A DNA stretch of 22,007 bases. Source: a virus. Made by a program: the position numbers and the translations under genes. Below, piece by piece: positions 1 through 18,740 of this stretch (within the stretch, counting starts at the first letter, position 1; each line of letters starts with the position of its first letter). The notes beneath the pieces are model-generated. The model did not search any database. It saw only the letters and a list, made by a program, of their open reading frames with translations, and was not told the DNA's origin. The stretch is taken from positions 1-22,007 of IMG/VR virus record IMGVR_UViG_3300007735_000859. One strand, written 5' to 3'.

Positions 1-3000
1 GCTGCTGTCCCGCAAGTTGCCCTTGAAAGTGCTGGAGATGTTTTAACTCTTGGGGCTGCGCGTTTCTTAGGGCGTCCGGCTCGCGAAGCTGCCGGAACTT
101 TAGGTCAACGCTTGCTTCGCGGCGCGGCAGTCGGTGCAGCAACCGAACCTCCTACCGAAGTAGCGCAGACAGCCATCGAACGCTACCAAGCTGGCCTTCC
201 CGTTACCGGCCCCGAAGCCGGTCGCGAATATCTTGAGGCTGGCCTTGGTGGCGCAATCGCTGGCGGCGTCCTTGGTGGTGCTGCGCGTGGCGCCTTTGGT
301 GCCCGGCCTGCCCCCGCTGCTCCTGCCCCCACTCCTGAAGCTGCCCCGACTCCTGAAGGTCCCGCTCCCGCTGCGCCCGCTGCTCCCCGCTTCGAACCCA
401 TTACGCTACCGGAACGCCCAGAACCCCTAGCTTCCGTGGCTGAGACCGAAGCCTTTCTTGCTGAGAACCCCCGCTTCACGCCGACCGTCCCACTTACCAC
501 GCCCGAAGCTGCCACCGCTTTCGTGAATGCAGCCCGCGTGGCCGACTGGCAACAGACCACCACCAACATTCGTCAGCGGGCCATCGACGATTTCGTAGGC
601 AAGCCTGCCGCACCCGCCTCTGAAGCCGAAGCCGCGCTGCCCATCAACCGTGAAGCGCAGGCCACCAACTTCTTCACTAATCTAGGTGAAGCCCAGACAC
701 TTGGCAACCTAGACATGAACTCGTTCACGCCCGCCCAGATCGCCCGTTCTGCCCTTGCGGTGCGCGACGTCGATCCCGGCAAACCCTCCAAGACCGAACT
801 GAAATCCGTCACCGAACAGCTAGACGGGCTTGTCGACGCGGGCTATCTACGCAAACTGACACCCCGCACCTACGGCATCAGCACTGCGCCTGTAACACCC
901 GCCGCACCCACACAAGCCGAAGCGCAAGCCGAAGTCGCCGCCTTCAACGAACAGCTTGCCGCTGGTACATTGACACCAGAAATGATGCAGCGCATGGGTG
1001 CTGAAGCTCCTTCGCCGCAGCCTCCGCTAAACGAACCTTCGCTGTGGCAAGGCTACTCTCTGAACGCAGGCCCTGATGCGCGCAGTTCTGTCGTGGCCCA
1101 GGCCCGCAACATAGCTGCTGTTCGCCAGCGCCCCTTCACTCGCCCCGAACTTGTTGACTTTGCAAATCAAATTTCGGCAGCCCCTACACCAGAAGCCCGC
1201 GACCAAATCGCCAATGACTTCATCACGCGCCGCACCCCCTCGCCTGCCGCTGCCGCACCCCCACCCCGTGGTTCAGTGCCGCCCGTCGGTCCTGCGCCCG
1301 CCACAACTTCTGCCGACGCCGCCAGAGCTGCCGACCCCGCATCCGGCGCTGGTGAACCTACAGAAACTGTTGAGGAAGCGCTGTTCACGCCGCCTATCAA
1401 TGAGCCGTTGAGGCAATCCCAAGCGCGAATTGACCAGCAGTACAATGACAGTTTCCGCGCTGGCACTTTCGCCAAAGTCCTCGCGTCACCTATTGCATTC
1501 TACGGCAAGCAACCTATATACAAAGCATCTGCTGACAGCATGGACCGTTATTATGTCCGCAATCACCAAGGCTTGAGCGACGTCACCGCGCTCTACGGTC
1601 CCATGCTTGAGATGCCTGCCGAAAGTCAGGCCCGCATGATACTTGCCTTGCAGGATGCCAGCGTCAATCGGCGCGACTGGAATCGAGGCAACTTCAGTGC
1701 AGAAGAAAACGCTGCGATGGACGGCGTCATTGCCGCGACTCAGCGTCAGCTTGACTACGTGATCGACGCCTATGTAAGCGAATACTTCAATCCTAACGGA
1801 GCCACCAACCCACAGGACCGTGCGCGCCTTGAAGCTTTCCAGCAACGCAAGGGCGACCGTCTAGTAGTTGATATGCCTGCCGACGAAGTGCGTGCGGCTT
1901 CGCCCGAAGGCTTCGCTGCCATGCAATCCTACAACAGGCTTCGCAATCCATTCTACATTCCCCAGATTGCGCGCGGCACCCACTTCGCTGCGGCTTATGA
2001 ACGCCAGCCCGGCGGCAAAGAAAAGCTAGTTCGTATCTACTTCTTCGATCCGGTGCGTGGCGTCCGCAAACTCCGTCAAAAAGTTGGTATGCAACGTGAC
2101 TTCGAAGCCATCGCCATCCAGCGCCTACGCGAAGAGTTCCCCGATACTGCCCGCTTCCGTGTTATGGAACGGGGCATTGAATCTGAAAACGACGCGCGCG
2201 CTTCAGAACTTCGTAGAGACGGCGACTTCATTGCCAACTACTTGCAGCAACTCAGTCAAGTGAGCGGCAAGGAAGCCAAGCAGATTATTGCGCGGATGTC
2301 CAAAGAAATAGACAAGGCGCAGATGGACCGCATGTTCCGTCCCAACAACAATTTGCTGCGGGCGGTAGTTCCTGAGAACGCTGTCGACTATGTACGCGAA
2401 ACCATCCCCAACTATCTGATTGCTGCCAACCGCATGCAGGCTAGGCGCACCGTGCGCGACGACTTCAACAGGTCGCTGGAAGGCTACAGCAACGAAGAAA
2501 AAGCTTACTGGAACGACACATTCAATTATGCGTCCACGCCCACGGAAGCTTTTGGGACGGGTCGCGCTCTCGCGTTCTTCGTATACTTGGGCTTCAACCT
2601 TAGTACGGCAGTCATTCAGTTTACGCAGAACCCTACCGTCTTGGTGCCACGTTTGCTGCGTGATGGGGGCGGGGCTTTCGGCACTACACGCTACGCCCTG
2701 TCAGCAGCCCGTGATGTGTACGGCACCCTAGACATCGCGAAGTCTGTAGGCAAGGAACTCAGTTACACCAAGAGTTTAGTGGATCGCGGTGTATTGTCCG
2801 CTGACGAAACCGCTGCTGTTAAGAAAGCTGTCCGCGATGGCCGCATCAATCCGGTGCAGGCTGTCGAGTTGCGTAGTTCTATTTCGGCTGCTGACTTCCG
2901 CAATACCGGCGTTGCTGACAAGGACGCCACAGCAATCGCGCAAGGCGCCAACAAAGTCGTTGACTTGTCTGGTCGCTTCCTATCCGCCGTCGATGAGACG

Positions 3001-4239
3001 AACCGTTTGACTGCTTTCTTGGCAGCTTACCGTCTAGCCAAAGCTCGCCCCGAAGTAATGGCCCGCGCAGGGCGCCTCGACAACCGCGAATATCGCACTC
3101 CCTACGAATACGCTGAAGGCGTAGTAAGCGATACCAACTTCCGTTCCGTAAAGGAAGACCGCGCGCTAGTGCAACGCTTCCATCCCGTTGCCGAAGTCAT
3201 GACGCAATTCATGTCGCCTGTCTTCAAGCTTATGGAAATCTACGCCCGCAGCGCCGCCCAAACTATTCGCGGTCTAAAGACAGGCAACCCCGAAATGGCG
3301 AAAGCAGCTGCCCTTCAGTTCGCAGCCATGACCGCCATCCAAGTTGGATTGGCCGGGGTCTGGTCGCTGCCCTTAGCTGAACGCATGCGCGAACTTATTG
3401 AGTTCGTAATGAAGCAAGCCTTCGATGATCCTATAGACTTAGAACAAGGACTTGAACGCTTCCTTGGCAATGGCTTCCTAGCGTCGCTTCTTAGCTATGG
3501 CCTGCCGCACGCGCAAGGCACCATCAGCCTGAACAGCCGTCTTAAGATCGATCCGCTACCCCAAGGCTCCGTGACCGAGTGGGATGTCCTGTCCTTGCTC
3601 GGCCCTGTCGGTGGCTTCGGTACCAAAGCTATGGACTTCGTCGATGCCTACAAGAAGGGCGACGTCTTCGGTATGTTGTATGCGTTCCCCCTGATGCCGA
3701 CTGCGGCTGCCAATCTTATCAAGGCTGGCCAGCTTGCCATTGACGAAGAACAGTGGACCAAGCGAGGCGGTCGCATCATTACACCTGACGATGTTCGCAA
3801 AGCTGGCGCATCCGGCTTGGTGCCTCCCCCTGTTCAGCAAGCTGTAGGCTTTGCTCCACCTGAGTTTGCTGACATCCGCCGTGGCGCTAACCGCATCAAA
3901 GAGCTTCAGAGTCTTAACAGAGACTCAACAGAACGCACCAACTTGGAGCTTGCCCGTTATATATTGCGCGCGTTGGAAGCCCAGCAGAACGGACGTGACC
4001 AAGACGTCGAGCGTTACATGGCTGAATACCAGAAGCGCAAAGAAGAAATTCTGCGCGAACAAGAAGGCAAGCCGATTGAGGCTCAGGTCCAAATTAACGA
4101 GCAAGCTATTGTGCGGCGCGCTCAACAAGACCTGCTAGGCCGTGGCAATCCTGAAGTTCTTACGCGACAGACCCGTGTTCCGGCGCGTAGCGAAGCTGCC
4201 CGCATTGCCGAAGAAGCGCGCTGGCGCGAACGGCAGTAG
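1..4239 (+). CDS. Giant internal virion (ejection) protein, PLxRFG-type, 5' end outside window
   Basis: The frame is open from base 1, so the gene begins upstream; the first internal start-like codon (TTG at 112) has no special claim. The visible 1412 residues begin with Ala/Gly-rich sequence including a glycine-zipper stretch (about residues 78-100) and a Pro/Ala linker. A possible small winged-helix-like segment follows (about 238-293, 'FTPAQIARSAL...GYLRKLTPRTYGI'), then a second Pro/Ala linker (about 409-455), then a long alpha-helical C-terminal region. That region has two hydrophobic stretches (about 853-877 and 1103-1125) and a charged, Glu/Lys-rich tail. The segments 'FFVYLGFNLSTAVIQFTQNP' and 'LSYGLPHAQGTISLNSRL' resemble the C-terminal part of giant phage proteins annotated as PLxRFG-domain or internal virion proteins, thought to be ejected with the DNA. 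Function is by resemblance only. Residues about 314-332 carry an FNE...GTLTP..M.RMG motif also found in the minus-strand gene at 8203-9540. Confidence 0.7.
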   Translation, partial: AAVPQVALESAGDVLTLGAARFLGRPAREAAGTLGQRLLRGAAVGAATEPPTEVAQTAIERYQAGLPVTGPEAGREYLEAGLGGAIAGGVLGGAARGAFGARPAPAAPAPTPEAAPTPEGPAPAAPAAPRFEPITLPERPEPLASVAETEAFLAENPRFTPTVPLTTPEAATAFVNAARVADWQQTTTNIRQRAIDDFVGKPAAPASEAEAALPINREAQATNFFTNLGEAQTLGNLDMNSFTPAQIARSALAVRDVDPGKPSKTELKSVTEQLDGLVDAGYLRKLTPRTYGISTAPVTPAAPTQAEAQAEVAAFNEQLAAGTLTPEMMQRMGAEAPSPQPPLNEPSLWQGYSLNAGPDARSSVVAQARNIAAVRQRPFTRPELVDFANQISAAPTPEARDQIANDFITRRTPSPAAAAPPPRGSVPPVGPAPATTSADAARAADPASGAGEPTETVEEALFTPPINEPLRQSQARIDQQYNDSFRAGTFAKVLASPIAFYGKQPIYKASADSMDRYYVRNHQGLSDVTALYGPMLEMPAESQARMILALQDASVNRRDWNRGNFSAEENAAMDGVIAATQRQLDYVIDAYVSEYFNPNGATNPQDRARLEAFQQRKGDRLVVDMPADEVRAASPEGFAAMQSYNRLRNPFYIPQIARGTHFAAAYERQPGGKEKLVRIYFFDPVRGVRKLRQKVGMQRDFEAIAIQRLREEFPDTARFRVMERGIESENDARASELRRDGDFIANYLQQLSQVSGKEAKQIIARMSKEIDKAQMDRMFRPNNNLLRAVVPENAVDYVRETIPNYLIAANRMQARRTVRDDFNRSLEGYSNEEKAYWNDTFNYASTPTEAFGTGRALAFFVYLGFNLSTAVIQFTQNPTVLVPRLLRDGGGAFGTTRYALSAARDVYGTLDIAKSVGKELSYTKSLVDRGVLSADETAAVKKAVRDGRINPVQAVELRSSISAADFRNTGVADKDATAIAQGANKVVDLSGRFLSAVDETNRLTAFLAAYRLAKARPEVMARAGRLDNREYRTPYEYAEGVVSDTNFRSVKEDRALVQRFHPVAEVMTQFMSPVFKLMEIYARSAAQTIRGLKTGNPEMAKAAALQFAAMTAIQVGLAGVWSLPLAERMRELIEFVMKQAFDDPIDLEQGLERFLGNGFLASLLSYGLPHAQGTISLNSRLKIDPLPQGSVTEWDVLSLLGPVGGFGTKAMDFVDAYKKGDVFGMLYAFPLMPTAAANLIKAGQLAIDEEQWTKRGGRIITPDDVRKAGASGLVPPPVQQAVGFAPPEFADIRRGANRIKELQSLNRDSTERTNLELARYILRALEAQQNGRDQDVERYMAEYQKRKEEILREQEGKPIEAQVQINEQAIVRRAQQDLLGRGNPEVLTRQTRVPARSEAARIAEEARWRERQ

Positions 4240-4287: not shown

Positions 4288-5058
4288 ATGTCTAAGTTTG
4301 CCTACTATATTGGCGTGGACCACCGTGAACCTGATGCACTGCGAGTTACCGAGGCATCTGTCCGAGCCTACGCCTCTAAGCCTGTCGATGTCAAGCATCT
4401 AGAACACATCGACCTGCGCCGCCGTCAATTGTTCGACCGGCCCTGGCGTGTCAACGAAGACGGCACCTACACTGACGAACGGGACGGCAAACCATTTAGC
4501 GTACAGTTCTCGCATACGCGCTTCCTCACTCCAATCGTAGCCAAGTACGACGGCGTCACTGACTGGGCGCTCTTCACAGACTGCGACTGGTTGTGGCTCG
4601 ACGACATCCATAAGCTGCTCCTTGAAGCTGATCCTAGCAAGACGGTCATGGTAGTACCACACCGCTTCGAGCCTGACAAGTCCACCAAGATGGATGGGCA
4701 AGTCCAGTCCCGCTACAAGCGCAAGATGTGGTCGGCCCTGATGCTTTGGAACATGAAGTCCAACAAGCTGCCCACTGTCGAGATGGTCAACGAAGCCACC
4801 GGCAATCACCTCCATACCTTTGGCTGGCTGCAAGATTCTGACATCGGCTACCTGTCGGAGTCGTGGCACTGGATTCCAAACTACAGCCCAACAACTGAAG
4901 TCGCTGTGCAAGCCGAAGAGCAGAACAGGCCCGTGCCTGTCAACGCTGTCCACTTCACATACGGGCCACCCGTAGCTGGCATGCTGGACCGCGAGCCTAC
5001 GCCCTTCGATAACTTCTGGACCAACGAACTAACGGACGCTTATCATAATGCGCGCTAA
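4288..5058 (+). CDS. GT-A fold glycosyltransferase-like protein
   Basis: The 256-residue protein looks like a single-domain nucleotide-sugar glycosyltransferase of the GT-A fold, loosely GT8-like. It has an N-terminal strand 'AYYIGVDHREPDAL', then 'DWALFTDCDWLWLDD' (about residues 92-106), whose D-C-D triad fits the metal- and sugar-nucleotide-binding DxD motif. A later 'AVHFTYGPP' (about 221-229) could be the C-terminal His that often completes the metal site in GT8 enzymes. An in-frame GTG at 4282 is possible, but ATG 4288 is preferred because it coincides with the predicted transcription start. The gene overlaps the next by 11 bp, so the two are probably co-expressed. The acceptor is unknown: virion protein, host surface glycan or modified DNA base are all possible. 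Confidence 0.65.
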   Translation: MSKFAYYIGVDHREPDALRVTEASVRAYASKPVDVKHLEHIDLRRRQLFDRPWRVNEDGTYTDERDGKPFSVQFSHTRFLTPIVAKYDGVTDWALFTDCDWLWLDDIHKLLLEADPSKTVMVVPHRFEPDKSTKMDGQVQSRYKRKMWSALMLWNMKSNKLPTVEMVNEATGNHLHTFGWLQDSDIGYLSESWHWIPNYSPTTEVAVQAEEQNRPVPVNAVHFTYGPPVAGMLDREPTPFDNFWTNELTDAYHNAR

Positions 5059-7192
5059 AATCATCACGACCCTTGGCCCCGGTGGTTGGGAAATCTATGG
5101 CCGCCGCTTCGTCGAATCCTTCAAGAAGTTCTGGCCTTCCGACATCCCCCTTGAAATCTGGCACCACGACGTCACGGGCGACTTCCCTTCTTATGAAGGC
5201 GTCACCTTCCATGCCCTCGACAATACGCCCTCTTTCCAGAAGCTGAAGGCCAAGCTGGGACAGAACGCCAAGGACGGTCCCTCACTTCAGTACTGCTTCA
5301 AGGCGGTGGCCCTCGCTTCGGCGGTGACCCCGGACCTCGACTGGATTGGCTTCGTCGACGCTGACACCGAGACCATGCGGCACGTCGACTCCCAGCTTCT
5401 CGATCAGCTTTTCGACGACAACGTCCACCTGACCTATCTGTACAGGAAGTCGGTTGCCGAAAGCGAAGGTTCTTGGTTCGCCTTTAATTTGGCTACTGTC
5501 AAGGGCGCCTCACTGCTGGCCGATTACTGGGGCCTATACGATTCCTTTGAAGCCTTCCACTTTAAGAAGGCCCACGACAACGCCGTCCTCGACCGCCTGG
5601 TAGTTTTGCACAAGGCGCACGGCTTGATGGTGAAGGACCTCGCAGCAGGGGCGCTGGGCTTAGATGCCTTCCACCAGTCCCCGCTGGGCGCCTACATGAT
5701 TCACTACAAGGGGCCGGACAAGCAGACCATCGCGAACCCCGGCCTTGCCGCGCCCGCCCGCTACGAAACGCTGTGCGAATTGCTGACCGCTTCTGTCAAG
5801 GCGACCGGCAAAGCAAACATCGTCGAGGTCGGCACGTGGAATGGTAGCCGCGCAATCCAGATGGCCGAGGCCGCTTTTGCTGCGGGCGCCAAGCAAGTTA
5901 GTTATGTCGGCTTCGATACTTTCGAGGATGGCAATGACCGCACCCACGAAGGCCACACCAAGCCGCACGCCAACTCGTGGCTAGTGGGCAATCGCCTGAA
6001 CAACTACAGCCGCATGATGTCGCGGAAGGGCTTGACTTTTGACTACACTCTGCTAAAGGGTAACACTCTCGAAACCCTGCCCCGAGCGGGCGAAGTAGTA
6101 AAGGAAGTCACGTTCGCCTACATCGACGGCGGTCACAGCTACGAGACAACGCTATCAGACTACCTGCACCTGAAGCACGTGCCGTTCGTGGTCTTCGACG
6201 ACGTAATCGCCGAGCCTGAAGACGGGGCGCCCGAGGGTCCGCGCAAAGTGTGGCAGGAAGCTCAGGGGCAGAAGCGCCTGATTACGAGCGGCGACGGCTA
6301 CAGCGGCCTTAAGCAGACCATCTCCTTCGGTGTGGTGGTGCGCGAAGGCTACCAGATGCCAGAGCTTAGGACGCGCATTCAGGTGAAGCCGGTCGACTCA
6401 GTCGACAAGGGCGAGCAGTTACAACACATTGCCGAGAACTCAAAGGCTTTGCAGAAGTGGATTGGCTGCTATCAGGCCCACACCAAGACTGCTATCTTTG
6501 TGAGTGCGGGGCCGACCGTGCCGCAGTTCTTGGAGGAAATCAAAAAGAAGCAGGCCGAGGGTGCCACGATCTTCACAGTCAAGCATGCCTTCCCGGTCCT
6601 CAAGAAGGCGGGCATCAACCCAGACTGGACTGTCATTCTTGATCCGCGCCCGGTCGACGGCAAGTCCACGCACGGCATCATTAGGACTGATCTGTTCGCC
6701 GACGCCAAACCCCGCGACCGTTTCTTGTTTGCAACTATGACGCATCCGTCAGTTCGCAAGGTGCTTGAAGAGAAGGGCGCCCAACTGTACGGGTGGCACG
6801 CCCACACTAACGCGACGGTGCAGGCAAAGCCAGCGGCCTTCGACACGGGCACCGTGGTTATGGGCGGTACCTGCTCCGCCACGCGCATTCCCATGCTGGC
6901 TTTTGTGATGGGCTTCCGGCGCTTTGAGTTCTACGGCTATGACTTCTTCTACCCTGAAGACACCAAGCAAGACGACGTGAAGCAGTCCTTCATGAAGGTG
7001 ACCTTGGGTGCAGAGCAGAAGTCCTACCTGACGACCGGCGAACTAGTGGCTGCGATGCAGGACCTGGGCCAGTGGAACAAGTGGCTTGTGGACAATCGCA
7101 TTACAGTTACGTTCCACGGCGACGGCGCAGGCAAGGCGATCTGGGAGCAGACCGTCAACAACTACAAGCAGCCCGAGGAGTATCCATTCTAG
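5048..7192 (+). CDS. Glycosyltransferase - methyltransferase - MptE/Maf-like fusion protein
   Basis: This 714-residue protein contains three recognisable domains. Residues about 1-230 are a second GT-A-like domain with 'WIGFVDADTETM' (DAD at 104-106). Residues about 235-430 form a class I SAM-dependent methyltransferase: 'VEVGTWNGS' (259-267) is the glycine-rich SAM loop, 'GFDTFE' (288-293) the acidic ribose-binding position and 'YIDGGHSY' (358-365) the motif typical of the Methyltransf_24 group. Residues about 475-714 resemble the MptE-like/DUF115 family, which includes the motility accessory factors (Maf) that glycosylate flagellin: 'IFVSAGPTV' (483-491), 'PDWTVILDPRP' (525-535) and a C-terminal 'GTCSATRIPMLAF..GFRRFEFYGYDF'. 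Only a weak ribosome site precedes ATG 5048; coupling to the upstream gene through the 11-bp overlap is likely. A role in building or attaching a modified sugar is inference. Confidence 0.75.
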   Translation: MRAKIITTLGPGGWEIYGRRFVESFKKFWPSDIPLEIWHHDVTGDFPSYEGVTFHALDNTPSFQKLKAKLGQNAKDGPSLQYCFKAVALASAVTPDLDWIGFVDADTETMRHVDSQLLDQLFDDNVHLTYLYRKSVAESEGSWFAFNLATVKGASLLADYWGLYDSFEAFHFKKAHDNAVLDRLVVLHKAHGLMVKDLAAGALGLDAFHQSPLGAYMIHYKGPDKQTIANPGLAAPARYETLCELLTASVKATGKANIVEVGTWNGSRAIQMAEAAFAAGAKQVSYVGFDTFEDGNDRTHEGHTKPHANSWLVGNRLNNYSRMMSRKGLTFDYTLLKGNTLETLPRAGEVVKEVTFAYIDGGHSYETTLSDYLHLKHVPFVVFDDVIAEPEDGAPEGPRKVWQEAQGQKRLITSGDGYSGLKQTISFGVVVREGYQMPELRTRIQVKPVDSVDKGEQLQHIAENSKALQKWIGCYQAHTKTAIFVSAGPTVPQFLEEIKKKQAEGATIFTVKHAFPVLKKAGINPDWTVILDPRPVDGKSTHGIIRTDLFADAKPRDRFLFATMTHPSVRKVLEEKGAQLYGWHAHTNATVQAKPAAFDTGTVVMGGTCSATRIPMLAFVMGFRRFEFYGYDFFYPEDTKQDDVKQSFMKVTLGAEQKSYLTTGELVAAMQDLGQWNKWLVDNRITVTFHGDGAGKAIWEQTVNNYKQPEEYPF

Positions 7193-9540: not shown

Positions 9541-10064
9541 TTCTTGGGACCTTTCTTGGAAGTTACTTTGCCACCCTTCTTGAAAGCCATTCCAAGATTG
9601 CGGGCGAGGTTTCGTTCGGTAGTGTTGCGGGGCGGTTGACCAGAAAGCAGGTGCCTCATGGTCGCGGCTTCGTTGGTGGTTTCGCCATATGAAGATGGGT
9701 CGCCGGTCCACTGCATGCGCGGCTGCGTCCGCTTGAACTTAGGGAACTGATCTTCAACCTGCCCCGATTGGCCTGGCAAAAAATCAATGTAGGTGGGCTT
9801 GCGCTGCTGTGGCTGCTGGCCAGCCTGAGCGGGAGTTGATTGGCTGCTGCTGCGTGTGCTAGTAGTCACGCTTGTTGATCCACCAGTGGCCATCTTCTTG
9901 GGCTTGCCTGACAGACGCAGGGCGATGGCAGTTGCTTGTTCGACGGCGGCCTTCTTGTTGGCGGGCTTGGATGTGCCAATGCGACCGGACTTCTGGTAGT
10001 CGTCGACCAGCGTCTGGATGTTGGCGCTGACGGTCTTCTGGGACTTGCCTTTCTTAAGCGGCAT
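9537..10064 (-). CDS. Basic late-cassette protein with MPLKKGKS N-terminus
   Basis: The 175-residue protein starts 'MPLKKGKSQKTVSANIQTLV' and continues with 'AVEQATAIALRLSGKPKK'. This N-terminal block resembles many small phage proteins with an 'LKKGKS...IATAL' pattern, often found near structural genes. A Ser/Thr/Gln/Pro-rich linker (about residues 60-95) leads to 'RKPTYIDFLPG' and a C-terminus 'MAFKKGGKVTSKKGPKK' that carries the same K-K-G-G motif as its neighbours. AAGGAA lies 7 nt before ATG 10064. It overlaps the endolysin gene by 11 bp and the next gene by ATGA. Function unknown. Confidence 0.75.
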   Translation of the reverse strand: MPLKKGKSQKTVSANIQTLVDDYQKSGRIGTSKPANKKAAVEQATAIALRLSGKPKKMATGGSTSVTTSTRSSSQSTPAQAGQQPQQRKPTYIDFLPGQSGQVEDQFPKFKRTQPRMQWTGDPSSYGETTNEAATMRHLLSGQPPRNTTERNLARNLGMAFKKGGKVTSKKGPKK

Positions 10065-10563
10065 GAAGGGCTTCCTTTTCGGTTTCGTCTACCCGGCGCA
10101 GCCAGCCCTTGCCAAAAGTTGGGAAGGTCTTCAGGCTCTTGTAGAAGTCACGGCGCGCTTCGGATACCTTGGCAATGAAGTCGTGAGCGTCGAGTGCGTT
10201 GATGGCGGCCATGCTCTTGGGACCGAGGGCACCGTCTTCAGTAACACCCGCCGCCCGCTGCATCAGTTTGGCTGCCCGGCCCACGCCCTTGTTGACCGCC
10301 ATGTCGAAAGCCAACAGGTCTACGCCCGGCTTTAGTTCGTCGGCGCGCACCGCATCCCAATAGCGGGACTTGTAGATGGCGCGGACGTCGGCGTCGGAGA
10401 TGTCGCGCAGTTCTTCTTTGGACATGGCCCGGCCCTTGAAGTCCGTGAAGGTGGCCAGCGTAATGCCTTTCATAGTCGCGCCGCCTGGGTCTTGAGGGTG
10501 GTCGATGTATAGCCCCTCGTGCTTCAGGATCAGAGCCAGCGACTTGTCGAAGTTCTCTTTCAT
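10054..10563 (-). CDS. Endolysin, glycoside hydrolase family 108 N-acetylmuramidase
   Basis: The 169-residue protein matches GH108 lysozymes. The catalytic-site signature 'ILKHEGLYIDHPQDPGGAT' (residues 12-30) has Glu16 as the expected general acid, and 'KGIT' follows. The C-terminal half ('GVTEDGALGPKSMAAINAL') matches the peptidoglycan-binding module usually joined to this domain. Length is typical for the family. There is no signal peptide, so it should need the holin encoded just upstream to reach the wall. ATG 10563 overlaps the holin stop as ATGA, with AGGA about 10 nt upstream. Role: cleavage of the MurNAc-GlcNAc backbone at the end of infection. Confidence 0.92.
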   Translation of the reverse strand: MKENFDKSLALILKHEGLYIDHPQDPGGATMKGITLATFTDFKGRAMSKEELRDISDADVRAIYKSRYWDAVRADELKPGVDLLAFDMAVNKGVGRAAKLMQRAAGVTEDGALGPKSMAAINALDAHDFIAKVSEARRDFYKSLKTFPTFGKGWLRRVDETEKEALHAA

Positions 10564-14375: not shown

Positions 14376-14571
14376 AGTATCCACTCCTTGCGTTTGATAC
14401 GGGTTGAACGATGTTGGTGCGGATCACCCAGATGTTGGTGCCGTTGGAAGGGTCGATGGCCTTTTCAAGCCACACCTTTACAACGTAACCGCGCTTGCGC
14501 CACCAGTTGCGGATGTCTGCCATCAGCTTGTAGTTGGCTGCGCGATCCGCCAGATAGTCATGCCTTGCCAT
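14365..14571 (-). CDS. Small basic hypothetical protein
   Basis: This 68-residue protein ('LADRAANYKLMADIRNWWRK', 'GYVVKVWLEKA', 'IWVIRTNIVQ') starts inside the polymerase 3' end (14-bp overlap). GGAGG lies 4 nt before ATG 14571. Its Trp-rich basic helix and short beta hairpin would suit a small nucleic-acid- or protein-binding fold. A similar short protein occurs in other phages, but I know of no function. Confidence 0.7.
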   Translation of the reverse strand: MARHDYLADRAANYKLMADIRNWWRKRGYVVKVWLEKAIDPSNGTNIWVIRTNIVQPVSNARSGYCVD

Positions 14572-15997
14572 TGGGCCTCCATTTCTTCAGGCCGTCAGGG
14601 TTCTTGTCGCTGGCCTTGCCCCAGTTATACCCGACTTCGACATCAAATGGAATCATTATTTCACGGCTGATGCCTTTGATGTCGGTCACTGGGAAAGGAA
14701 AGCGAAGGCATTCAAGAACTTCGGGTAGCAGTTCGTCGGCCTTGTCAATGCGGACCTGGCCGAGAACAGCATCGTGTAGGTTCAGAAGTATTTGAACGTC
14801 GGCGCCGGGCTTACCTTCGAAGCGTTCCCATATCTGGTAGATGCCGATGTTCATTAGGACACCGACGCAGTGCTGGGGTACGAAGGCAATGGCTTCGCGC
14901 AGGGTAGCATCGTCCCAGCGCCGGTTCCAGAAGTTGCGCCGGATACCGAAGGGCGTGATCAGGTAGCCCTTGGTCTGTAGCTGGTTGGCTACCCATACGT
15001 GCCAGTCGCTGATGCCGGGGAACCGCTTGAAGTACTGGGCCTGGAAGGCTTCAGCTACGGCGGTTTCGACCTTCATCTGCTGTGCCAGGGTGAACGGCTT
15101 TCCATAATAGTTACTGCCGTGGGCGCCCCTCTTTGTAATGTCACGGTAAGAATAGCCACGGTAGTATTCGCGTTCAGCAAGCTCGCGGTCTGGCGCGAAA
15201 CCAAAGACCATGGAAGCGACCATTGTGTGTGAGTCGCCACCCTCCACTGCCGCGATGTAGTTATCATCGCCGGATAGATACGCAACAATGCGCGCTTCTG
15301 CTCCCTGTTGATCAGAATAGAAAAGTAGATAGCCTGGATCAGCAACGAAGCAGGTGCGCGCTTCCTTCGGTATGTTTTGAAGGTTACTTCCGATACGGAA
15401 CGGATGTTCACTTGACGATAGTCGGAACGTCTCAGTGCCTGCGATATTGAACGCTGCATGGAAACGGTTGCTGGGCGACAGCTTCTTACTAAGAAATTCG
15501 ATTTGCTTTTCAAGGTCGCGGATGCGGAGGATGTGGTTGGCGAAGAAGGCACCGCGCGGGTATTCACGAGCGATGCGTTCGAGGATTTCGCGGTCGGTTC
15601 CAACTTTGGTTTCTCCTTTCTTGGATTTGGTTTGCTCGGGGATGGCGAGCATTTCGTAGAAGAGGACCATGAGCTGGGGCGTGGAGTTGTGGTTGACTGT
15701 CGTGCCCCATAGCTGCTCGCAGACGTAGTCGAAGTTGGCTTGGACGTGGTCAGCGCGGGCGCGTAGTCCGGCTACCAAGGTGTCGCGCCGGGCCGTGTCG
15801 ATCTGGACGCCGCGCCGCATCATGGTCATGATAGGACCGAGCATCAGTTCGCTGTAGCGGTGGGTGGTCGCGGCCCAGTCAGGAAGAAGGCCCTCGTCGT
15901 AGATTTCTTTGAGGGCCATCGTCTGCATTGTGTCAAGGGAATTGTATACGATCTCTTGATTTTCAGGAGTCGGGGTCAGGTCCGTCAGTATCTTCAT
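14558..15997 (-). CDS. Family A DNA polymerase, polymerase half (split from its exonuclease)
   Basis: The 479-residue polypeptide carries the Pol I palm and fingers: 'LQNIP' (206-210), motif A 'YSDQQGAEAR' (catalytic Asp229), motif B on the O-helix 'RDITKRGAHGSNYYG' (Arg285, Lys289, Tyr297), and motif C 'NLHDAVLG' (catalytic Asp409). Two deviations stand out: the residue four after the O-helix Lys, equivalent to Phe762 of E. coli Pol I, is His293, and the usual HDE is HDA. The first 30 residues contain 'VYNSLDTMQT', the Exo III motif YxxxD (Tyr18, Asp22), so the protein starts in the middle of the exonuclease domain. ATG 15997 has its own GGAGA 5 nt upstream. It should replicate phage DNA, presumably with the product of 16594-17538. 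Confidence 0.93.
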   Translation of the reverse strand: MKILTDLTPTPENQEIVYNSLDTMQTMALKEIYDEGLLPDWAATTHRYSELMLGPIMTMMRRGVQIDTARRDTLVAGLRARADHVQANFDYVCEQLWGTTVNHNSTPQLMVLFYEMLAIPEQTKSKKGETKVGTDREILERIAREYPRGAFFANHILRIRDLEKQIEFLSKKLSPSNRFHAAFNIAGTETFRLSSSEHPFRIGSNLQNIPKEARTCFVADPGYLLFYSDQQGAEARIVAYLSGDDNYIAAVEGGDSHTMVASMVFGFAPDRELAEREYYRGYSYRDITKRGAHGSNYYGKPFTLAQQMKVETAVAEAFQAQYFKRFPGISDWHVWVANQLQTKGYLITPFGIRRNFWNRRWDDATLREAIAFVPQHCVGVLMNIGIYQIWERFEGKPGADVQILLNLHDAVLGQVRIDKADELLPEVLECLRFPFPVTDIKGISREIMIPFDVEVGYNWGKASDKNPDGLKKWRPNGKA

Positions 15998-16289
15998 TGG
16001 TGTCTCCGTTGAGGAAGTTATTTCGCATACGGGTAAGCAGATGCAAAGTCAAGGGAGGACCGTCATAGGATTTGGCAAAGCGCCGGACACGGGTCGGGTC
16101 AAGGTCAGCAGCCAGACAAACTTCGTCGAAGTTCTGGGCGGTGGTGCCAAACTCAGCGGTGAGCCATGCGTGAGCCTGCCGCTTGTTGACTAGGGCTACT
16201 GGTGTCTTGGGTTCGGAGGTAGCGTCTATGAGCGCTTGGATAATTACGCTCGCCCATAGACGCCTGATGCCTGAATCTTCTTCGCTCAA
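15963..16289 (-). CDS. Small alphaproteobacterial-type protein, possible DNA-binding regulator
   Basis: The 108-residue protein has the pattern 'RRLWASVIIQALIDATSEP' ... 'RQAHAWLTAEFGTTAQNFDE' ... 'VCLAADLDPTRVRRFAKS'. I recognise it as a small family in alphaproteobacteria and their phages. The second half is compatible with a helix-turn-helix, so DNA binding is plausible but unproven. The start is TTG 16289 (ATT 16292 is possible); no strong ribosome site is seen, so it may depend on the gene ending 12 nt upstream. It overlaps the polymerase start by 35 bp and is one of the two genes separating the polymerase halves. Confidence 0.72.
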   Translation of the reverse strand: MSEEDSGIRRLWASVIIQALIDATSEPKTPVALVNKRQAHAWLTAEFGTTAQNFDEVCLAADLDPTRVRRFAKSYDGPPLTLHLLTRMRNNFLNGDTNEDTDGPDPDS

Positions 16290-16300
16290 AATGTCGGTAC

Positions 16301-16573
16301 TTATTTAGATTTACCGACCTTTTGTGCTTTCTTAGATTCCTCTTTGAGTTCCGCGTTGGAAGTCTTGTCGGCCACAGTGACCGTAAAGAACTCGGGAACC
16401 TTGAGGCCAGTGGCTTCTTCGAACATCTTGCCAAGCTTGTTGTAGTCACCAAGCTCAAGCGTCCTGTTCATCCACTCGTTGAAGACTTTTTCGAGAGGAT
16501 AGGTCTTAACAAACTCAGCGGTTTTGCCGAAGTCGATGGTCGCGTAGACCGATAGTCCAATAGTTTTTTCCAT
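16301..16573 (-). CDS. Hypothetical 90-residue protein between the polymerase halves
   Basis: ATG 16573 is preceded by GGAGA 6 nt upstream. The sequence begins with a beta strand ('GLSVYATIDFG'), has a helical middle ('LEKVFNEWMNRTLELGDYNK', 'LGKMFEEATGL') and a highly charged Lys/Glu tail ('ELKEESKKAQKVGKSK'). No homing endonuclease, intein or maturase motif is visible, so it does not explain the split polymerase as an intron or intein. No family is recognised. Co-location suggests a replication accessory role, as inference only. Confidence 0.7.
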   Translation of the reverse strand: MEKTIGLSVYATIDFGKTAEFVKTYPLEKVFNEWMNRTLELGDYNKLGKMFEEATGLKVPEFFTVTVADKTSNAELKEESKKAQKVGKSK

Positions 16574-16593
16574 GGTAGTTCTCCGTCAGCAGG

Positions 16594-17538
16594 TTAGTCG
16601 ATTGCTCCTGCCTTGTTAAAGTCTTTTTTGGCCTTGGTTCGAAGGTGCTTCCATGCGCGGGTCGGTATGTGAAGGGAGGCTAGGAAGCCCAGCGACTTTT
16701 CCCATTCCGGTTGCCATGCGTGGTGGCGAAGCATCGTATCGAAGATGTGGCCTTTAGGTCTTATGCCATAAGCATCAAGGTATGTCAAGTCATAGGTGGC
16801 GTTATGAAATCCCCATGACAAGTCGGGACGTTGGGCCAGATACCAAAGCCACATCCAGATGTCACGCTCGTCGGCTTCGGACCAGATGTGTTGGTAGGCA
16901 CGGTCTTCTAGCTGGACGTACAGGCAGCGGTCTGACGACGTGGCTACGGAGAACTCGGTGATGCGGCAAGCCTTGTTGGTTTCTACGTCGAAGACAATTT
17001 CATCGCCGATGTAGCGGGTCGAAAAGTCGTAGAGGTCGGCGACCGTTTCGGGCAGGTGAATGGTGCGGGGCCGGTCAGTGTAGCGGGTCTGGACTTTACG
17101 CATAGCGGATACTACGACGGGCCGTTCGTTCCAAGCCATGCGCGCGTAGAGGGTGGGCGCGTAGGTCGGAACCACCTGCAAGCCCTTGACGAAGGGGCTG
17201 TCGATGTGGGTGCCCCGGAAGGTGTCCAGCTTGGTTTCGCCGGTCAAGCAGTGCATGGCATGGGGACCCATGGTCAGGGCCATGTCATAGCCTTGCAGGT
17301 CAGCGCATAGCTTAACGAAATCGTCTTGGGCTAGGCGCGTGAGCGGGGCGCCCGGCTTGCCACCGACAAACAGGGTAGGCCACTTGGCGGTGTAGGCCCG
17401 GTGTGCGGTATGGATACTGGTCGGACGCAGGCCCGCCGCTTGCAGCAGTTCCTGCGTTACCTTCCATTCCCACTCGGAGAGTGGGCCACCGTTGGCAGCG
17501 TCGACCGAGGGCCAATCAATTACTAGGGCGATCTTCAA
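16594..17538 (-). CDS. UDG-like fold plus DEDD 3'-5' exonuclease, N-terminal half of split PolA
   Basis: In the 314-residue protein, residues about 1-150 resemble the uracil-DNA-glycosylase-like domain found at the N-terminus of some phage polymerases ('YDMALTMGPHAMHCLTGETK', 'GLQVVPTYAPTLYAR', 'RPVVVSAMRKV'). The usual 'TYHP' is 'TYAP', so glycosylase activity is doubtful. Residues about 178-300 are a DnaQ-like exonuclease with Exo I 'IVFDVETN' (D184, E186) and Exo II 'GFHNATYDLTYL' (N246, D250). The protein ends before Exo III, which lies at the start of the polymerase gene. The start is TTG 17538, supported by GGAG 7 nt upstream and by overlap with the previous gene (23 bp). Confidence 0.85.
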   Translation of the reverse strand: MKIALVIDWPSVDAANGGPLSEWEWKVTQELLQAAGLRPTSIHTAHRAYTAKWPTLFVGGKPGAPLTRLAQDDFVKLCADLQGYDMALTMGPHAMHCLTGETKLDTFRGTHIDSPFVKGLQVVPTYAPTLYARMAWNERPVVVSAMRKVQTRYTDRPRTIHLPETVADLYDFSTRYIGDEIVFDVETNKACRITEFSVATSSDRCLYVQLEDRAYQHIWSEADERDIWMWLWYLAQRPDLSWGFHNATYDLTYLDAYGIRPKGHIFDTMLRHHAWQPEWEKSLGFLASLHIPTRAWKHLRTKAKKDFNKAGAID

Positions 17539-17962: not shown

Positions 17963-18481
17963 TTAGCGTTCCTTGTAGAAGACGTGGTTGTCGATGCGGG
18001 CAGTCCGCCGCAGATGGCGCCATCCTACTATGGATGTGTCGTGGAAGTAAAGGGCGCCGTGCGTCAGGTCAGGGATATTTGAAAGGGCCAGTTCGGCAGC
18101 CTCCCTAGCTTGCGCCACGTCGGTGACATTTGCTAGGGGTAAATGTCGGCGCGCGGTGCAGGCCCACGAGAACTGGCAGGAGTTGCCTCGGCGCTGGAAG
18201 ACTACATCGCAGACGTCAGGCGGGAAGCGCACGTCGTTGGCCCTGTTAAGGATGACTTGGCCTACGGCGATCTGGCCTGCGCGTGACTGGCCTCGGGCTT
18301 CCCAGTAGATGGCGCGGGTTATGCAGTTCAGGTAGCGGTCGCGGTTGTTGGTGTCGTTCCATTCTACTTCGATGGGGCTAGGCGGCACGGCGATGGCTGG
18401 CAGGGGTTGCGCCCATACCAGACCCGCCAACGCCATGACCGGCCAGTAGATCAGAACATCACGCACTAGGCGTAGCTTCAT
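17963..18481 (-). CDS. Secreted cell-wall hydrolase, SleB/Hydrolase_2 type
   Basis: The 172-residue protein starts with a likely signal peptide or signal anchor ('MKLRLVRDVLIYWPVMALAG', 'LVWAQPLPAIA'). A SleB-type domain follows: 'AIYWEARGQSRAGQIAVGQV' with the expected catalytic Glu61, 'ILNRANDVRFPPDVCDVVFQ', 'CQFSWAC' and 'DLTHGALYFH'. SleB-family enzymes are peptidoglycan hydrolases, usually lytic transglycosylases. ATG 18481 is chosen because GGAGG lies 8 nt upstream; the longer form from 18517 would put 12 hydrophilic residues before the signal. It lies among replication genes far from holin and endolysin, so it may be expressed earlier or serve a different purpose. Confidence 0.85.
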   Translation of the reverse strand: MKLRLVRDVLIYWPVMALAGLVWAQPLPAIAVPPSPIEVEWNDTNNRDRYLNCITRAIYWEARGQSRAGQIAVGQVILNRANDVRFPPDVCDVVFQRRGNSCQFSWACTARRHLPLANVTDVAQAREAAELALSNIPDLTHGALYFHDTSIVGWRHLRRTARIDNHVFYKER

Positions 18482-18740
18482 CTTCCTTCCCTCCTGCCAG
18501 CGCGGCGCGGGCTTCATCCAAAGCAGCTTCTAATTCTTCAGTGTAGCACTCAATACCTATACTGTTTAGAACACGCTCACCTTCATGGGCGTATAACTTA
18601 CGCAGCGCCGCTTCCAATTCCGAGATGCGGTCGGCGGCTTCAAATGGTGCGCGATCAAAATAAATCCCTCGGCTACCTTCATTCTGAAGGCGCAGCCATT
18701 TCGCCGTATTCCGCAACCGCTTCACAAGATCATCACTCAT
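18459..18740 (-). CDS. Small coiled-coil protein, paralog of the 19040 gene
   Basis: The 93-residue protein starts 'MSDDLVKRLRNTAKWLRLQN' and has a heptad-like helix 'AADRISELEAALRKL' and an Ala/Glu-rich end 'EELEAALDEARAALAGGK'. ATG 18740 follows GGAGAACCCA; the in-frame extension upstream overlaps another gene and lacks support. Two stretches of DNA are shared with the gene at 19040-19276 (20 and 16 identical bases), and the ribosome sites are almost identical, so the two are duplicates. Function unknown. Confidence 0.7.
   Translation of the reverse strand: MSDDLVKRLRNTAKWLRLQNEGSRGIYFDRAPFEAADRISELEAALRKLYAHEGERVLNSIGIECYTEELEAALDEARAALAGGKEDEATPSA

Follow-up and report, generated by a model that had tools for sequence, protein, structure and literature searches.

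How can a phage DNA polymerase proofread when the residues of its exonuclease active site are divided between two genes? The question is posed by a 22-kb virus record (IMG/VR record IMGVR_UViG_3300007735_000859; all 22,007 nucleotides of the analysed stretch are referred to here as the window), in which a family A polymerase is encoded as two open reading frames (ORFs), an exonuclease ("exo") half and a polymerase half, separated by two small genes, P0003 and P0004. From sequence comparison and structure prediction, we consider it likely that the two chains form one polymerase with a proofreading site assembled in trans, and that the gene was broken once, at the base of a phage clade, most probably by a homing endonuclease. 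The locus comprises the following features:

16594..17538, minus strand: exo half, 314 aa, TTG start; uracil-DNA glycosylase (UDG)-like domain (residues ~1-160), Exo I and Exo II.
16301..16573, minus strand: P0003, 90 aa; a facultative insert at the junction of the exo-half stop and the P0004 start.
15963..16289, minus strand: P0004, 108 aa, TTG start; helical in a low-confidence model.
14558..15997, minus strand: polymerase half, 479 aa, ATG start; Exo III helix followed by the family A palm, fingers and thumb.
15932..15946, minus strand: Exo III codons Y18-N-S-L-D22 of the polymerase half.

Read 5' to 3' on the minus strand, the order is exo half, P0003, P0004 and polymerase half, with the 3' end of P0004 overlapping the start of the polymerase half by 35 nt. 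The exo half carries Exo I (D184/E186) and Exo II (N246/D250), while Exo III (Y18/D22) lies on the polymerase half. All DEDDy residues (Exo I D/E, Exo II D, Exo III Y...D) are thus present and spread over two polypeptides; neither chain contains the complete fold, as the exo half ends ahead of the Exo III helix. Accordingly, the Pfam match of the exo half to DNA_pol_A_exo1 (PF01612, E=1.4e-5) is partial, covering profile positions 33-125 of 173. The polymerase half matches DNA_pol_A (PF00476, E=7e-42) and, together with the aspartates of motifs A and C and the R/K/Y of motif B, which are invariant clade-wide, this places the enzyme in family A. Residues 1-160 of the exo half form a diverged type-4 UDG-like domain, which is clear in Caulobacter phage Kuura and in the relatives L091 and L090; the window's copy is degenerate, and Pfam finds no UDG domain in it. 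A preliminary description of this DNA had given the same layout, with the same six residue numbers and intervening genes of 90 and 108 residues, all of which we recovered on re-reading the sequence. Its placement of the split inside the exonuclease domain agrees with the partial Pfam match and with the alignment to intact relatives.

Those intact relatives, sought and used to map the break as the preliminary description had proposed, locate it precisely. The UDG-like, exonuclease and polymerase domains constitute one ORF in ctMlz233 (MW202489) and in Microcystis phage Mel-JY34, the nearest intact type, whose polymerases resemble that of the window in their domains, domain order and catalytic residues but differ in being single ORFs of 779-810 aa. 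In the alignment to the intact proteins, the break lies in the loop that joins the post-Exo II "WK" helix to the Exo III helix. The C-terminus of the exo half falls in the segment following the conserved WK, and the N-terminus of the polymerase half ~17 residues ahead of the Exo III tyrosine. No part of the exonuclease fold is therefore missing, but its last helix, bearing the Exo III tyrosine and aspartate, is on the polymerase chain. Among the sister and outgroup records described below, 74 of 89 contain one fused ORF, so that the gene is continuous in relatives and split in the window.

We scanned IMG/VR with three queries (the polymerase half, its alignment with Kuura, and the exo half) and recovered relatives ranging from 96% down to ~31% identity. 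The split proved to be carried by a large group of freshwater phages. Both halves occur as separate ORFs in 75 split-clade records (window and Kuura counted) and are fused in none; L090 raises the two-half total to 76. Because some of these records are near-identical to one another, 45 representatives were placed in the tree. All 45 are of the split type, with the same loop broken wherever both halves are present, and in the outgroup-rooted tree they form one clade (Shimodaira-Hasegawa-like approximate likelihood ratio test, SH-aLRT, 99) whose sister clade consists mainly of intact genes. A scan of genome contigs brought up no bacterial or archaeal relative. The sole isolated phage found with the same break is Kuura (OQ067476), in which genes 029 and 026 repeat the window's arrangement of exo half, two small genes and polymerase, with 29.6% identity to the window in the exo half and 33.7% in the polymerase half; the paper on Kuura (PMC9959647) does not mention the split. 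The agreement of 76 records, including a sequenced isolate, rules out an assembly error concealing a continuous gene, one of two findings that the preliminary description had named as fatal to its proposal. The stable genetic rearrangement that it had suspected is common to the whole clade, although it missed that the split is clade-wide, that the spacer is variable or absent, and that the N-terminal domain is UDG-like.

Whether proofreading survives the split was addressed from conservation, selection and co-divergence. The Exo I aspartate and glutamate, the Exo II aspartate, and the Exo III tyrosine and aspartate show no variation among the 78-79 sequences complete at the respective site, which span identities down to ~30%. 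The pooled ratio of nonsynonymous to synonymous substitution rates (dN/dS) is 0.077 for the exo region but falls to 0.047 in the part of the exo half that follows Exo II; on the polymerase half it is 0.039 in the Exo III segment and 0.066 in the rest. The two values of ~0.04 flanking the break are the lowest measured, below that of the polymerase body, indicating strong purifying selection. The distance matrices of the two halves also correlate closely across 35 phages (Mantel r=0.884; best of 2000 permutations, 0.303). Had proofreading been lost, the exo half would be a relic or serve some other purpose, and the Exo III helix would persist on the polymerase half as a structural leftover. The absence of the last helix from the exo half fits such a loss, as does the window's UDG-like domain, which has decayed past Pfam recognition and evolves faster than the other parts (dN/dS 0.20). 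Nevertheless, the invariant catalytic residues and the dN/dS of ~0.04 on either side of the break disfavor loss, which we regard as very unlikely. Of the two outcomes that the preliminary description had left side by side, proofreading in trans and loss, the former is best supported by the sequence and modeling results; proofreading most likely needs both chains, and the halves probably associate physically and retain proofreading activity.

A structural model is consistent with such an association. The two halves of L009 happen to share one frame, and read-through of the stop codons therefore yields one protein in which a non-native linker of 97 aa connects them. AlphaFold2 folded this linked protein, from a 94-row alignment, with a mean predicted local distance difference test score (pLDDT) of 87.5 and a predicted template modeling score (pTM) of 0.85; the linker is disordered, the Exo III helix scores ~94-98 pLDDT, and the break falls in a loop between helices. 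In Foldseek searches ~745 columns covering both halves of the model aligned with known structures, reaching a TMt of up to 0.81 for the Bst large fragment and of 0.73-0.76 for Klenow. The halves are thus predicted to fit together as in Klenow. Because intact homologues in the alignment and the covalent linker guide the placement, the model speaks to compatibility, not affinity.

Taken together, these results suggest that a family A replicative polymerase would work as two polypeptides, translated from separate starts and presumably on one polycistronic message. The exo half would provide Exo I and Exo II and the N-terminal helix of the polymerase half Exo III, and the chains would associate into an enzyme resembling Klenow, whose DEDDy proofreading site is a composite of the two. 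In the window a GGAG Shine-Dalgarno sequence lies 6 nt upstream of the ATG of the polymerase half; as start choice was ambiguous in a clade-wide census of such sites, only this one was relied on. Separately, upstream halves often end in Lys-(Gly/Ala/Lys)-Asp/Glu-Asp/Glu, as in several split records (e.g., L091, L093, L116, L216 and L224), and in those inspected these C-terminal codons look like a Shine-Dalgarno sequence of the gene that follows. A single protein would still be made if an intron, protein splicing of the halves or stop read-through joined them, and the L116 halves do share a frame with a single TAG between them. However, Rfam finds no intron, the window contains no intein or intron motif, the spacer includes a conserved coding gene (P0004, dN/dS 0.088), the window, L094 and L110 have their halves in different frames, and in L090 6.2 kb and ~10 genes separate the exo half from the polymerase downstream. 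We therefore reject a joined product, which is extremely improbable.

The spacer differs widely among the split phages. The gap holds from zero to ~10 genes, ranging from adjacent ORFs, as in L094, L110 and L116, where no gene intervenes, up to 1.8 kb and, in L090, 6.2 kb. Its genes also differ among relatives and include P0003, P0004, DUF7768, an RNase H-like gene, a deoxynucleotide monophosphate kinase and HNH endonucleases. Since gap size and gap genes vary across the clade, the window's two spacer genes are incidental and no part of the split mechanism. P0003 is missing from L001 and L005, and a ~306-nt difference between the window and L001 at its site marks it as a clean, facultative insert; an HNH gene takes its place in L006/L007/L012/L040. 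Throughout the window's subclade P0004 stands between the halves, and a homologue (L288:6364-6684) is still found between the distant halves of L090. Apart from one further ORF (L287), P0004 was found only in these phages, and a role as a universal polymerase subunit is unsupported; its AlphaFold model, built on 11 sequences, was unusable (pLDDT 50.6). Kuura genes 027 and 028 are unconvincing as homologues of P0004 and P0003 (027 versus P0004, 21%; no PHROGs match). A more elaborate arrangement, in which proofreading is a dissociable subunit, with the UDG/exo half leaving and rejoining so that stoichiometry sets fidelity, and P0004 serves as a third holoenzyme subunit in the window's subclade, is conceivable but improbable.

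What, then, split the gene? Neither P0003 nor P0004 can be assigned as a homing endonuclease, as neither matches any family in Pfam or PHROGs. More generally, Pfam, PHROGs and Rfam reveal no intron, intein or endonuclease motif in the window's spacer genes. The preliminary description was right on this point for the window itself, but its dismissal of homing elements fails for close relatives that carry HNH genes at or beside the break. L006/L007/L012/L040 have a 179-aa HNH-type ORF (endonuclease VII/HNH profiles in PHROGs) between the exo half and P0004. The polymerase gene of L027/L028/L044 is itself interrupted, within the Exo III codons and directly behind those equivalent to Y18-N19, by a gene for a 182-aa HNH-AP2 endonuclease. 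The remnant of the original polymerase 5' end in L044 is identical to the uninterrupted L009 start at 57/57 nt and ends after the Tyr-Asn codons; downstream of the cassette ~29 nt of polymerase coding sequence are repeated and a new start is supplied. In L188/L211, members of the sister clade, the polymerase is of the intact type except that an HNH gene of 113 aa interrupts it just before Exo I, and the second ORF restarts with MKLAVDIET. These cases show the step needed for fission, in which active-site codons are targeted and the downstream part is given a new start. An additional HNH ORF (L038:953-1471; 36% against the L006 enzyme) immediately follows a polymerase gene, so that HNH elements flank the polymerase gene on both sides.

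The gene has also been broken several more times in the sister clade. L224 is split before Exo III, and joining it to the split clade is rejected (approximately unbiased (AU) test, p=0.003), so that the Exo III border has been split at least twice independently. Seven records (L216/L227-L229/L238/L239/L241), which are polyphyletic (AU p=0.0001), are split before motif A, and the L188/L211 split lies at Exo I. L047 (ctLwi270, MW202554) was considered as a case of the same split and rejected: its break falls after Exo III, and it lies outside the split and sister clades as an independent split. The ORF between its halves (2878-3138) we take, from its motifs, to resemble an NrdR-type zinc ribbon; its PHROGs matches are mostly families of unknown function.

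By analogy with the HNH insertions, the ancestral split was probably the work of an endonuclease. A homing endonuclease gene aimed at active-site codons most likely entered an intact UDG-exo-pol gene, causing a single break at the base of the clade and bringing with it a new stop and start. That endonuclease would since have been lost from the window, and ordinary small genes would now come and go in the spacer. Several observations weigh against this picture, besides the limit on the structural model given above. The ancestral insertion is not preserved, the Exo III-site HNH cassettes are secondary insertions into already split genes, and the Exo I-site cassettes belong to another clade. Moreover, L224 has the same break and two small ORFs of no recognized family in its gap; lacking a recognized endonuclease there, it leaves room for fission by other routes, such as a stop plus a new start. 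The split could accordingly have come from plain mutation, with a stop and a new Shine-Dalgarno sequence and start arising in a tolerant loop, or from ordinary insertion of cargo, homing endonucleases being later visitors. The position of the break in a loop between helices and the adjacent halves of L094, L110 and L116 suit this account as well. Against it, HNH genes have repeatedly come to lie precisely at exonuclease motifs, at Exo I in the case of L188 and at Exo III in that of L027/L028/L044, and their insertion rebuilds the downstream 5' end, the very step that fission requires. Given the L224 gap and the members with no gene between the halves, we allow the mutational or cargo route a substantial chance, while judging it somewhat unlikely.

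Set against known systems, the split appears to be a variant of the homing-endonuclease "genes-in-pieces" phenomenon, in which the break separating Exo III would be the new element. In Aeromonas phages 25 and 44RR the replicative polymerase is likewise made as two polypeptides, gp43A and gp43B; in phage 25 a homing endonuclease (seg) occupies the gap of gene 43, and the two halves co-purify with polymerase activity (PMC2988022). That enzyme belongs to family B, whereas the window's is a family A polymerase cut inside the exonuclease fold, with Exo III on the other chain and the arrangement fixed clade-wide. The nrdA gene of phage Aeh1 offers a parallel in another enzyme: the HNH homing endonuclease mobE lies in a critical region of an essential enzyme, and the split NrdA is functional (PMC2988022), but the endonuclease is still present in Aeh1 and absent from the window. 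A split family A polymerase is known from the OM43 phages, most of which have it; in MEP401 and MEP402 it occupies two ORFs with a small ORF of unknown function between them, as in the window (PMC10580990). These enzymes are broken within the polymerase domain, into exo plus N-pol and C-pol, as are the seven sister-clade records split before motif A, whereas the window's break precedes Exo III. In the open-access literature we found no report of Exo III on a separate chain from Exo I/II, or of the clade-wide conservation of such a split. An exonuclease active site shared by two chains throughout the history of a diverse clade would constitute a natural split proofreading enzyme, whose fidelity could be switched by omitting one subunit and in which the cost of a composite active site becomes testable. 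The many independent breaks, which fall at Exo I, at Exo III and ahead of motif A and in some cases contain HNH genes, form a clear natural series for the fragmentation of an essential gene and bear on how homing endonucleases may fragment genes by targeting codons that selection holds constant.

Other features of these polymerases and of the window were also recorded. In motif B of the window's polymerase half (residues 285-299; ~15101-15145, minus strand), a histidine occupies the position of E. coli Pol I residue 762 in the O helix. The same histidine is present in 77/77 split-clade sequences and is common in the intact sister clade; a virioplankton survey describes Phe, Tyr and Leu types at this position (PMC6302109). 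Two polymerase halves contain in-frame inserts (L040:1114-3459 and L123:4366-6819), of which that in L040 is intein-like, with a weak Pfam intein splicing match, and lies inside motif B (GAHG^C...). Elsewhere in the window, positions 5048-7192, in an apparent structural region, encode a 714-aa protein with Methyltransf_24 and MptE-like domains. Cell-wall hydrolases of two families are encoded at 10054-10563 (Glyco_hydro_108) and 17963-18517 (Hydrolase_2), the latter just upstream of the polymerase genes.

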